The notes under the pieces were generated by a model. It saw only the letters and a program-made list of their open reading frames with translations, had not been told where the DNA came from and did not search any database. From Agromyces cerinus (GTDB lineage: Bacteria; Actinomycetota; Actinomycetes; Actinomycetales; Microbacteriaceae): 64,000 nt of DNA. Below, piece by piece: positions 16,376 to 19,802 of the stretch (positions are counted from its first letter, which is position 1; every line of letters starts with the position of its first letter). The DNA is taken from contig NZ_JAFBCT010000001.1 in the NCBI RefSeq assembly GCF_016907835.1, forward strand, positions 3,410,001 to 3,474,000, read 5' to 3'. The position numbers were made by a program, and so were the translations under genes.

Positions 16376-17202
16376 ACGGACCCTGCCCCGATCTCCTGGG
16401 TGCGCACTTCGCATTGCGTTGCGGTCGGTGACCGGCGATGCGTCGGTGTGAGTGTGTGCCCCGCGTGCGGTGCGCCGCGACGAGGCTCGCTCTGGTGGCG
16501 AGGAGCACATCGTGCTGACGCGCTCATGGTGGATGCCAGTCGACGCGACCCATCGTTCTCGGTCGGGTGCGGCTCGTGATCGTGCCACACCGACGTTGAT
16601 GGCTGGTGTCCACTGGCCAGGGCCGGCGCTGCCGGCCACCGTCCGCGCGTAGGCATTGTTCGGCGGAGGTGCCCGGTCGAGTCGTGGCCGCGTGCTCGCG
16701 GGATGGGCTCGGCCTTTCGCATCGAGTCCCCCACAGCCACACGTGCCCTCTCGGCGAGACCGAGCGTGCTCACCGGTGCCGTCACTGCCGGTCGTGGTGC
16801 CGTCCCGGGCGCGACGAGGCTGTCGTGCCGGGTGTGCAGCCGATGCGGCTTCCGTGCTCAGATCGGAGTCCGCAGCACAAGACATGTCCGTCTCTGTGGG
16901 TCCCATGACGCACCTCAGAGCCCGTGAGGCGACCTCGGGGGATCACAACGAGAGAGCGGTGCGTCGGCCAACTCAGCCAGTACCCGCTCGACGCGACGAG
17001 TCAGGGCAGGTCGGCATCGCCCCCAGGTTTCGGAGCCGGGCGAGGGGGATGAAGGTTGCACCAGGTCCTCTGGCGCGAGCGCGTGTCCCCGGACCCGAAG
17101 GCTGCGGCGCTCCCGCGAACGGCGAGGAGCGCGAGCCCGTTCCGCGGGTGAGCGGTTCGCCACGATGTCGCGACTCCCCCGGCGGCACTCTGGTTCGCAC
17201 GG

Positions 17203-17218
17203 TGTTTCACGTGAAACA
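17203..17218. promoter_or_regulatory. parS: parS centromere site 2
   Basis: A perfect TGTTTCACGTGAAACA, the bacterial parS consensus, in non-coding DNA 0.83 kb after rsmG. Confidence 0.96.
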
Positions 17219-17529
17219 TCGGTGTCGCGACTCACCGCCATGCTCGGGTGGGTGTCGATGGCGTGGTCGTCTGCAGGCGCCGGCGCCTGCGTTGCATTCT
17301 TTCGTCTCGCCCGAAACGTTCCCTCGGGTTCCCCGCGACCCGCCCGGTCGGGAAGAGTGCGCGAGTCGGAGGATCCGAGATGCCGCAACGCGCACCTGCC
17401 CGATCGATTCGGCATGCAGGCGCGGGCGTCTCCGCCAGGCTCCCGTCCGGCGCGACCGGACGAGGATGCGGAAGCCGACCGTCCATCCGTTCATCGCGGC
17501 AGGCGTGACTGCCGGAAGCCAAGGCGGTG

Positions 17530-17545
17530 CGTTTCACGTGAAACG
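17530..17545. promoter_or_regulatory. parS: parS centromere site 3
   Basis: An intact core GTTTCACGTGAAAC flanked by C and G, as at the rsmG site. It is the first copy in a local duplication. Confidence 0.9.
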
Positions 17546-17588
17546 CTGTGCCGGAACCGCGGGCGCAGGGCCGGAACCGCAGCGGTGC

Positions 17589-17602
17589 GTTTCACCTGAA
17601 AC
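17589..17602. promoter_or_regulatory. Decayed parS copy
   Basis: GTTTCACCTGAAAC differs from the parS core by one base in the central CG, which destroys the palindrome. ParB binding is probably weakened. Confidence 0.6.
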
Positions 17603-18084
17603 GTGGTCCACCGCGCGGTGCACCACGACATCTCGATGCGGGTGCGGTCTGCATCGGACCCGCGCAGTGATCGTGATCAGCGGTGCCGCGGCCCGCCGCC
17701 CAGGGGCGGCGTGTCCCAATATTCCGGCCGCGAGCCGAGCGAGACTGCATCATCCCGTCACGCGCGGGCATCCAGTTGCCGTGTCGATCCGCCACCGCTC
17801 CTCATGCTCGAGGCCGCGCCTTCCCCGCGGCTCGGCACCGGGTCTTGGGCCCCGCGTCATCCCTCACACACCCGCCGTCCCCCGCTCGGGATCCCGCTGT
17901 CCGAGACGCGAAGCTCGTGGCCCGCTCCCCCATACCGATTCCAACTCCCGGTCCCCGGCCGAGCTCTTGCGGACCGAGACCCGCAGCTCGATCCCCCGAC
18001 CTCGACGAGTGCCCAAGACCTGAGGCTCGACGCGTAGTCCCCGATCGTGGCTCCAGATGATGTGCTGTGGGGACCCTTGCTCTC

Positions 18085-18134
18085 AGATCAGATCAGATCA
18101 GATCAGATCAGACCAGATCAGACCAGATCAGACC
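18085..18134. repeat. Five-base tandem repeat (AGATC/GATCA)
   Basis: About ten consecutive GATCA units, the later ones alternating GATCA with GACCA, between two parS groups. Such an array can change length by slippage. It also gives an unusual run of GATC sites in GC-rich DNA. No gene is associated with it. Confidence 0.85.
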
Positions 18135-18372
18135 CAGGTCCAGATGCTTCGCCGAGGCGAACCCACAACCCGCAGTTCGCGACCCGCAGCCGATTCCAGT
18201 ACTGGGGATTCGCTGGCTGATTCTGAGCTTCGATCCCTGGAGCCGGGCTTGGTCGCGGCCTGCAGCCATGCCCGAGGTCTCACGGTCTCATCCTCGGACC
18301 GACGCTTCGGGCGGAGCTCCCCGAGTCCCACGGCCGGATCCCGCCGGAGCGTTGACCGGACGCTCATCCCGC

Positions 18373-18414
18373 AGCCCGGTCTCCGCACGCGGAAGCCCGG
18401 TCTCCGCACCCGCA
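18373..18414. repeat. 21-bp tandem duplication
   Basis: Two adjacent copies of a 21-base unit sharing AGCCCGGTCTCCGCAC. It is another sign of slippage-type growth of the gap. Confidence 0.6.
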
Positions 18415-19169
18415 TGCCTGGGACCGAGATCTCGCCGCGCGCTGCCGAGCCTCGACTCGTCGGCCTACGCCCGGCGGTCTCGGGCGCGAATCACGCTCGC
18501 CGATTCCCAGGGCGCATTCGCCGAGGCTGGATCCGCCCTCGGACCCAAGACACAGTTCGACCACCCCGAGACCCGACGCGATCCGTGTCGAAGCCTACGC
18601 AACCGCCGGCCTGCACCTCTCTCCGTTGACCAGGCTTCCGCAGCACGATCCAAGCGCCTCGATTCCGGAGCCGAGATCCCGCCGCGCATGTTCCGTATCC
18701 TTGGGGCCGAACCCAAGTCCCGCGGGTTGTTCCTCGGCAGAGAACCCGGCACCGCGCTTTCCGCTCCCTGCCGGCGTCGAGGGTCGAGCCGGCCCGTCGA
18801 GGTATGACCGCGGTGACGCCTCCCGTGGCCGACTGGCGCGGGAGATGACCCTCGTCCTCCCCGCCCGTCGTGCAGGTGGATTCGTTCCCTCTCCCCTCTC
18901 GCGATCCCCGTCAGTGGACGTGGTCGGTGCTTCTGATCATTGGTCGTGCCGCTCCCGCCAGTCGGCTCCTGTTGGTGGTGCCCGGGCGCAGAGTCACGCG
19001 CGAGGTCACGGAATCGCGGTGTGTGATGGTGGCTCGCGTGGGGGCGGCGCAGCCGCCATGGCGCGCTCGTCGCCTGGTCTCGGATCAGTGGCCGTCCGGC
19101 CGGAGAGAATCGGGACTCCGGCGGCTCGCGCCATCGGAGAGGGTTCGAGGGGCACGAGGGGTGAAGTAT

Positions 19170-19195
19170 CGCGATGTTTCACGTGAAACATCGCG
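19170..19195. promoter_or_regulatory. parS: parS centromere site 4 in an extended palindrome
   Basis: A perfect TGTTTCACGTGAAACA at 19175-19190 whose flanks continue the symmetry, giving a 26-base perfect palindrome from 19170 to 19195. The longer symmetry goes beyond the 16-base consensus. Confidence 0.95.
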
Positions 19196-19273
19196 GTCGA
19201 CCAGGCCCCCCTCGTGGCAGGGGCGAGCGAGCCGACTCGCGTGGTCTCGATCGCGGGAACAGCGGCTCGGCTC

Positions 19274-19328
19274 GGCAACGGCAACGGCAACGGCAACGGC
19301 CTGCGGGGTGCGGGGTGCGGGGTGCGGG
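19274..19328. repeat. Adjacent GGCAAC and GCGGGGT microsatellites
   Basis: Four GGCAAC units (19274-19297, plus a partial) are followed by three to four GCGGGGT units (19303-19328). Both are exact and lie about 100 bases after parS site 4, which fits drifting non-coding DNA. Confidence 0.85.
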
Positions 19329-19583
19329 CAGCAGGCAGCGGGCAGAAGAGGGCGGCGGTGCCGGTGGAGTGCTGTCCCCCTCGAGCCATCGGCGAATTCT
19401 GGCCGATTCGGGATCGGCAACACCTGTCCCTCGGGGTACCGCTCCCTCGCGGCTGGCTTCACATCCCGGTGGAGTAGTCATGACCTCGATCCCGAGCGCG
19501 TGCGTTCGCTTCGTCTCTGCTGTCGCCGATCGCACTGTTCTCTCGAGCAGCAGACCCGCGCCACCGGCATGAAGCGAACAAGA

Positions 19584-19599
19584 TGTTTCACGTGAAACA
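19584..19599. promoter_or_regulatory. parS: parS centromere site 5
   Basis: A perfect TGTTTCACGTGAAACA about 200 bases upstream of the parA start. Confidence 0.96.
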
Positions 19600-19732
19600 C
19601 CGCGAAGAGATGCAGGCAACCGTACAGGCAGCGCGCAAGGGGCGGCTGACCCGTCCCTGCCGCGGACGATCGGTTCGGATCTCGCGGAGTTCGCTCGTGT
19701 TTCAACTTGAGAGTCGGTCGCGCCGGTTAGGC

Positions 19733-19762
19733 TTGACTCTCGGATCGAGGACACCGCAGAAT
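19733..19762 (+). promoter_or_regulatory. Candidate parAB promoter
   Basis: TTGACT (19733-19738) and CAGAAT (19757-19762) with an 18-base spacer lie about 40 bases before the parA start. The match is moderate; an overlapping TAGGCT at 19728-19733 could be an alternative -10. Confidence 0.35.
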
Positions 19763-19802
19763 GCGGCGAATCTCTCGAATACCAAGGATTTGGAGCATCG
19801 GC

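Follow-up and report, generated by a model that had tools for sequence, protein, structure and literature searches.

The rsmG-parA locus and its parS sites

We analyzed a 64,000-nucleotide stretch of the Agromyces cerinus chromosome (contig NZ_JAFBCT010000001.1, positions 3,410,001 to 3,474,000; hereafter the window), in which the partition genes parA and parB are separated from rsmG by a long spacer carrying several copies of parS, the site at which ParB loads. The spacer runs from the rsmG stop codon to the parA ATG at 19803 and comprises 3,427 bp (16376-19802). Allowing up to 3 mismatches, TGTTTCACGTGAAACA is matched 7 times in the 64 kb, against 0.06 matches expected from 100 shuffles, and these matches start at 15730, 17203, 17530, 17588, 19175, 19584 and 20657, all within approximately 5 kb (15730-20672). 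When the whole genome (3,977,730 bp, a single contig) was searched with the 14-mer core at up to 1 mismatch, the same 7 sites made up the total, and 6 of them are perfect. The gene dnaA (11402-12835, reverse strand) marks the replication origin, and its start lies 2.9 kb from the first parS. The arrangement is that of a ParABS system, with 7 sites in 5 kb close to both parAB and oriC and no others in the genome.

Two of the sites, which we call anchor sites, flank the spacer. The upstream one (15730-15745; C/G-flanked, with a perfect 14-mer core) occupies precisely the 16 bp that separate the jag stop codon (15729) from the rsmG ATG (15746), while the downstream one (20657-20672) lies inside parA, in the codons for DVSRETS, 30 bp before the ATPase core. 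The spacer interior holds 4 perfect cores and one copy with a single mismatch. Three of the perfect cores are T/A-flanked: 17203-17218; 19175-19190, which sits within the longer palindrome CGCGATGTTTCACGTGAAACATCGCG; and 19584-19599, just 5' of a promoter-like block that precedes parA. The fourth (17530-17545) is C/G-flanked. The mismatched copy (17588-17603), taken together with the bases 5' of it, duplicates the C/G-flanked site locally (17524-17545 and 17582-17603, 95% alike over 22 nt). An earlier note on this DNA, made from the letters alone, had described exactly this interior set, ending at 19802, and had placed 2 further sites in parA and in rsmG; the parA site stands, whereas the other lies not in rsmG but in the intergenic gap before it. 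The spacer also contains 3 microsatellites that show slippage: (TCAGA)10 at 18083-18132, and 2 adjoining short tandem repeats with CGGCAA and TGCGGGG units (19273-19328).

The genes downstream are those of a chromosomal partition system. The parA gene (19803-21569, forward strand) encodes 588 aa, of which the first 300 form a fast-evolving N-terminal extension and the ATPase core begins at approximately 20703; parB (21569-22549, forward strand) encodes ParB_N, HTH_ParB and ParB_C domains and contains GERRLR, a motif that we take to contact cytidine triphosphate (CTP). Pfam matches were strong for ParA (AAA_31, 3.6e-62) and for ParB (ParB_N, 1.3e-31; HTH_ParB, 7e-33; ParB_C, 3.9e-6), and a deviant Walker ATPase thus stands beside a ParB with a helix-turn-helix and an N-terminal CTPase-type domain. 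The first ParA residues, AQGGGRGWFHRKRPQP, are common to 3 species, and we therefore fixed the ParA start at 19803 and with it the 3' end of the spacer. In an alignment of these species, the extension (19803-20702) shows conserved islands (AQGGGRGWFHRKRPQP, IDWDAATAAAL, DRLLEDLIREIVGDA and the parS-encoded DVSRETS) in otherwise fast-changing sequence; outside the ATPase core, ParA had no Pfam match.

Coding and RNA content of the spacer

To recognize coding DNA, we used the amplitude of guanine-plus-cytosine (GC) content over the codon phases. In the gap this amplitude averaged 0.06, with a maximum of 0.11 (0.20 with another window placement), whereas mostly coding stretches averaged 0.41 and shuffling the gap DNA gave 0.08 (95th percentile 0.16). 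Only 2 runs of at least 400 bp without a codon-phase signal occur in the 64 kb, at 12900-13440, beside dnaA, and at 16440-20160, the latter extending into the weakly coding start of parA. A six-frame read-through of the gap gave no Pfam match up to E = 1 and no mobile-element family, Rfam gave no match in the spacer at E up to 1, and a tRNA search found none in the gap; weak Rfam matches elsewhere in the window, to AsdA (12254) and sR45 (22250), fell far under the gathering scores. The gap thus shows neither the codon periodicity nor the conserved sequence or structure of a protein-coding or RNA gene.

Turnover of the spacer sequence

Compared with the congener G021, the window aligned from 2473 to 37076 (2473-16412 at 94% and 19664-37076 at 90-94% identity) except for the spacer, 16413-19663, and 42 bp at 28350. 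No pieces over 100 bp aligned within 16413-19663, and at a finer scale 6% of the gap was covered, mostly parS sites and their flanks, although the ParA cores of the two species are 91% alike. When substitutions were simulated in the gap at the rate of third positions in the ParA core (0.248), 100% remained covered, and at 1.5 times that rate 45%. The alignment with a second congener, G213, stops at 16376 and resumes at 19664, and it also breaks within the fast-evolving N-terminal part of parA.

We applied the same test to 9 pairs in all, drawn from 40 genomes, with small indels simulated at 5% of substitutions and with the third positions of the ParA core as a yardstick that is itself not fully neutral. 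The loci L067 and L069, whose ParA cores are 95.6% alike, were covered over 39-41% of their gaps, against 100% in simulation, and their largest aligned piece falls on an inserted gene. Between L045 and L047, 1-4% was covered, compared with 65% simulated at 1.5 times the rate. In the closest pair, L041 and L043, 87% and 62% of the gaps were covered at 83% identity, again against 100% simulated. The 2 most distant pairs (L052-L054 and L044-L049) retained 0-2% in the 1.5-fold simulation and so weigh only against the plain third-position rate. Close species retain the parS sites and the parA promoter-like block, whereas most of the remaining spacer DNA outpaces the third positions of parA, and this turnover is fast without being instantaneous, as the gap of L041 and L043 is still mostly alignable. 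The contrast between the kept 14-bp sites and the rapidly replaced DNA between them is striking.

The promoter-like block (19705-19750, forward strand) has GGTTAGGCTTGACTCTCGG at its core and is the only conserved element other than parS that we found in the spacer. It lies within 19664-19760, which is 82-96% alike across 6 congeners. Over 40 genomes, the 46-bp block was found with at most 14 mismatches in 13 and with no better than 22 in 12, while a reversed-sequence control averaged 22.5 mismatches and never fell under 20. Of 57 genomes of the genus, 38 have the shorter GTTAGGCT no more than 2 kb ahead of the ParA core, and none has its reversed form there. By its sequence, GGTTAGGCTTGACTCTCGG reads as a parA promoter.

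As to the source of the spacer DNA, duplication from elsewhere in the genome was not seen: the best outside match among the 40 of 149 candidates scored was 33 bp long, and its query (19273-19304) is a short repeat that matches many genomes. Capture of genes followed by their decay is likely to be one source, although the six-frame Pfam search recognized no gene relic in the window gap itself. Of the growth by local duplication and slippage that the earlier note had suggested, duplication can be seen in one parS pair only and slippage in the 3 microsatellites, and the spacer has been rapidly replaced and has not simply grown.

The locus across the genus

We next measured the locus in 60 genomes of the genus, one per species and including that of the window, of which 57 were measurable; a contig ends between rsmG and parA in G012, and G225 and G226 have no ParA at E up to 1e-90. 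The rsmG stop codon and the ParA core lie 997-7,063 bp apart (median 3,715), and the number of perfect parS per locus is 2-9 (median 5). The frame upstream of the ParA core is open for 102-608 codons in all 57, and measured to the first possible ParA start the gap spans 334-5,920 bp, reaching 1 kb or more in 53 genomes and falling short of it in 4. Conservation of gap length had to be rejected with this full set; in an earlier set of 36 genomes, no gap measured to the first start had been shorter than 1,028 bp. Within the genus, gap length and parS number were not significantly correlated (rho 0.21, p 0.23, 36 genomes).

The 2 anchor sites are the stable part of the array. At up to 1 mismatch, a site at the jag/rsmG junction is present in 51 of 57 genomes (perfect in 42) and a site no more than 50 bp ahead of the ParA core in every one of the 57 (perfect in 53), while the sites between them differ in number and position. 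The genome-wide count of perfect parS equals the count in the 8-13 kb around the locus in 54 of 57 genomes. G219 and G221 each have one extra parS, 2-3 kb on the far side of parA. On contig C9 of G227, parA occurs twice with equal score (L269 and L273); the copies are oppositely oriented, approximately 71 kb from one another, and each is accompanied by parS of its own. The second copy has 6 sites, bringing this genome to 13, and is possibly an assembly artefact.

Among 109 perfect sites in 40 gaps, a pyrimidine precedes the core in 103 and a purine follows it in 107. Because T and C are equally frequent before the core (52 and 51 of the 109), the C/G-flanked form is a normal variant in this genus. 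The outer GA...TC palindrome around perfect sites is weaker, and farther flanks approach the background. Apart from fragments of parS, the most widely shared 10-mers occurred in 10 of the 40 gaps, with the top ones of the 6 shuffles shown at 9-11, and are not above chance.

Coding-like stretches, defined by an arbitrary cut as 2 or more 300-bp windows with an amplitude above 0.25, occur in the spacers of 25 of the 57 genomes. Inserts were named among the first 40 genomes only, 15 of which have a gene-like frame; one member per insert group was scanned with Pfam and the others were assigned by likeness of their translations. Seven unrelated insert types were named, and the cargo differs by clade: a glyoxalase (L040, L041 and L043, the last also with a frame for an AraC-type regulator), an S66 LD-carboxypeptidase (L051, L053 and L058), a tyrosine phosphatase (L067, L069 and L070), a DUF4166 protein (L057), a DUF1254/DUF1214 protein (L037) and an IS481-type transposase (L066). 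The insert frames of L060 and L062 had no Pfam match, and L063 also has a gene-like frame in its gap.

These comparisons bear differently on what the earlier note had proposed. An expanded gap is found throughout, since measured to the ParA core it is at least 1.0 kb in all 57 genomes and no close relative has the short gap that would have spoken against it, and the 2-9 perfect sites agree with a parS-rich region. The conserved length and parS count that were to accompany a structural role did not materialize, with 334-5,920 bp to the first start and 2-9 perfect sites. The description as gene-free holds for the window gap, which contains no conserved gene and where codon-phase amplitude is at the shuffled level and the Pfam, Rfam and tRNA searches were empty; it does not extend to the whole genus, with coding-like stretches in 25 of 57 genomes.

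Distribution in the family

In 80 loci from 77 other genera of the family, the median distance from rsmG to the ParA core is 180 bp and 50 are under 350 bp, in keeping with the earlier statement that the 2 genes are usually close neighbors. Distances of at least 1 kb occur at 16 of the 80 loci, each in a different genus. Over the family as a whole, Agromyces and the named loci included, the distance ranges from 22 bp (L081) to over 7 kb (L066 and L191). Long gaps among named loci include those of Microbacterium sp. MYb54 (1.3 kb, 4 perfect parS) and Homoserinibacter gongjuensis (1.4 kb, 2 perfect parS).

A FastTree tree of RsmG, ParA and ParB was built from 107 rows (17 from the genus, 79 family loci and 11 named loci; L095, which has no ParB, was left out). 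The 17 genus rows, all long, form one group, adjoined by g47 (approximately 0.5 kb) and g85 (approximately 0.6 kb), and the named loci of Homoserinibacter, Leucobacter and Microbacterium are interspersed among the family rows. The long-gap state changes 15 times on this tree, and 13 of these changes are forced by well-supported branches, which is incompatible with a single origin of the long gap in the family; the deepest forks of the tree are weak, and it does not distinguish gain from loss. The expanded spacer is a genus-wide and family-recurrent variant of the known ParABS system. Genera with long gaps have more parS genome-wide (mean 4.5 versus 3.2, p = 0.006) when the tree is ignored.

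Two further loci stood out for their sites. In the 6.9-kb gap of L132 (genome G132), 2 parS-like sites are perfect and 11 have one mismatch, and the parS consensus itself may have shifted in its lineage. L181 (Actinotalea solisilvae), which groups with a Cellulomonadaceae locus, has a 1.3-kb gap with no perfect and 6 one-mismatch parS-like sites.

Function of the locus and competing readings

ParB loads at parS, slides as a clamp and spreads over 10-15 kb, and bound proteins stop the clamps in vitro (PMC9242446; this and the other sources are cited from excerpts of their text). In most bacteria parS sites are clustered within 5-40 kb (PMC8357415), and when Corynebacterium glutamicum carries only one parS, ParB binding peaks within 2 kb on either side (PMC7083940). 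Given this literature, the cluster of sites and the adjoining parA and parB, the locus most likely works as a ParABS centromere. We consider it probable that the locus as a whole is the centromere of the chromosome, a cluster of ParB-loading sites beside dnaA set in a gene-poor spacer that is largely indifferent to sequence. After loading at the 6-7 sites, ParB clamps would slide along the spacer and assemble the partition complex, which would be moved by ParA. Sequence would then be needed only at the 14-bp sites, at their nearest flanking bases and at the parA promoter, and the remaining spacer would drift, acquire repeats and occasionally take in genes. More speculatively, a gene-poor stretch of a few kilobases may be tolerated or favored if transcription hinders the clamps or ParB hinders transcription, and genes that land in the ParB zone might tend to decay, leaving spacer behind. 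A structural role of the spacer is plausible, and its being kept as a quiet zone is, we infer, about as likely as its being neutral.

Several observations weigh against a centromere that depends on such a platform. With one parS, C. glutamicum grows normally and has its normal shape, its Hi-C maps being somewhat changed (PMC7083940), and one near oriC is enough for segregation in Pseudomonas aeruginosa (PMC4368675), so that a large platform is not required. Published chromatin immunoprecipitation sequencing reportedly shows that ParB occupancy does not change strongly near genes (PMC9242446). Most sampled genera of the family lack a large platform, gap length varies widely within the genus, and its spacers, with 25 of 57 carrying coding-like stretches, are not strictly gene-free. 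Nor did a tree-aware sign test across the family, which has little power, lend support to a link between longer gaps and more parS (median p = 1).

The strongest rival, which we hold to be appreciably less probable though in earnest contention, accepts the parS sites as functional and regards the DNA between them as passive junk and decayed cargo at an insertion-tolerant site, neither its length nor its freedom from genes being under selection. The unconserved length (334-5,920 bp to the first possible ParA start), the unrelated cargo genes that differ by clade, the microsatellites, and the failure of gap length to track parS number either significantly in the genus or with tree-aware support in the family are all as this reading would have them. 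Yet the six frames of the window gap hold no Pfam relic, the gap to the ParA core has stayed at or above 1.0 kb in 57 of 57 genomes despite the fast turnover, and a single other run of at least 400 bp without a codon signal, that beside dnaA, occurs in the 64 kb.

A bolder version of the centromere reading is tentative, and we rate it no higher than the neutral one. In eukaryotes, the function of regional centromeres is set by region and not by sequence, and their sequences turn over fast. The Agromyces locus might likewise be a partly regional centromere: selection would preserve several kilobases of transcription-poor DNA as a zone where ParB lands and slides, whatever the sequence of that DNA, and the zone itself would be unusually mutable or recombinogenic. 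Such a zone, having arisen or been lost many times in one family, would be a bacterial counterpart of fast-evolving eukaryotic centromeres. Fast turnover is seen at this locus, but its parS sites stay defined by sequence.

It is improbable that the spacer is a long regulatory leader of parA, with ParB at parS repressing or modulating the promoter at 19705-19750 and the DNA upstream acting as an extended operator. The conserved promoter-like block before parA would suit such a role, as would the perfect parS that 34 of 57 genomes have 60-300 bp ahead of the earliest possible ParA start, and parS-mediated control of gidB and parA has been proposed for Mycobacterium (PMC2346475). This would account for the site nearest parA, but not for kilobases of unconserved DNA or for sites 2-3 kb upstream.

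A protein gene or non-coding RNA hidden in the gap is very hard to credit. Long open frames do exist, including one of 455 aa at 16656-18023, but they are unsurprising at 69% GC and have no Pfam match. A hidden protein gene was rejected on the lack of codon periodicity, at the level of shuffled DNA, and of any six-frame Pfam match, and a hidden RNA on the lack of any Rfam match in the gap; moreover, almost nothing in the gap can be aligned even with the species whose ParA core is 91% alike. Compared with that species (locus L035), substitutions concentrate on third codon positions in rsmG (0, 1, 44) and in the ParA core (2, 1, 70) and are even over the phases in the gap (494, 518, 498), a count that carries little weight as the underlying gap alignment is poor.

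An assembly error or a mobile island is the least credible explanation of all, as the window lies within one 3.98-Mb contig, 56 other genomes of the genus share the architecture and the six-frame search found no mobile-element family in the window gap, with only the cargo and one IS481-type transposase of some congeners pointing to an island.

The question that the locus raises for chromosome segregation is whether ParB needs only the 16-bp sites or also quiet DNA around them, considering that bound proteins stop ParB clamps in vitro, yet occupancy in the cell is reportedly little affected by genes (PMC9242446). Lineages with short and long gaps stand side by side on the tree, which makes the question testable by comparison and by spacer exchange. 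The spacer also represents several kilobases of bacterial DNA under very little sequence constraint, and could as such gauge neutral composition and indel turnover.

Other features of the window

Two features outside the locus are worth recording. Four DnaA-box-like 9-mers (2 perfect TTATCCACA and 2 with one mismatch) lie within 190 bp at 35355-35543, upstream of an open reading frame at 35654 and approximately 22 kb from dnaA. Farther on, a block at 37076-45952 is variable: pieces over 100 bp failed to align with the syntenic DNA of G021 over 37076-43107 and with that of G213 over 39634-45952. Its open reading frames include one NCS1-type transporter-like and one methyltransferase-like, both below curated cut-offs.

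Comparison with known systems

Among the matches listed in a search of the open-licence literature, we found no report of an expanded rsmG-parA spacer in Microbacteriaceae. The closest published parallel is Mycobacterium, in which the gene order gidB-parA-parB is the same as here and the parS positions correspond to both anchor sites, one at the start of gidB (rsmG) and one, in M. bovis BCG, inside the parA codons (PMC2346475). In the excerpted account, however, gidB and parA overlap without a spacer and there are 2 parS only (PMC2346475), whereas A. cerinus has 3.4 kb of spacer and 5 further sites. C. glutamicum resembles the present locus in having 10 parS clustered near the origin, 9 of them intergenic; its sites are spread over a 35-kb region 73 kb from oriC (PMC7083940), while those described here form a compact, gene-poor block 2.9 kb from dnaA.

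Within the family, the nearest genera (g47 and g85) resemble Agromyces in having a ParA frame that is open upstream of the core, in their case for 138-196 codons, and they carry 3-4 perfect parS; they differ in that their gap to the ParA core, 486-627 bp, lies nearly all within the ParA frame. Microbacterium gubbeenense DSM 15944 (L191) also has an expanded rsmG-parA gap, with 11 perfect parS, and differs in its length of 7.7 kb to the ParA core, in that 29% of its windows are coding-like, and in its 3 gene-like frames.

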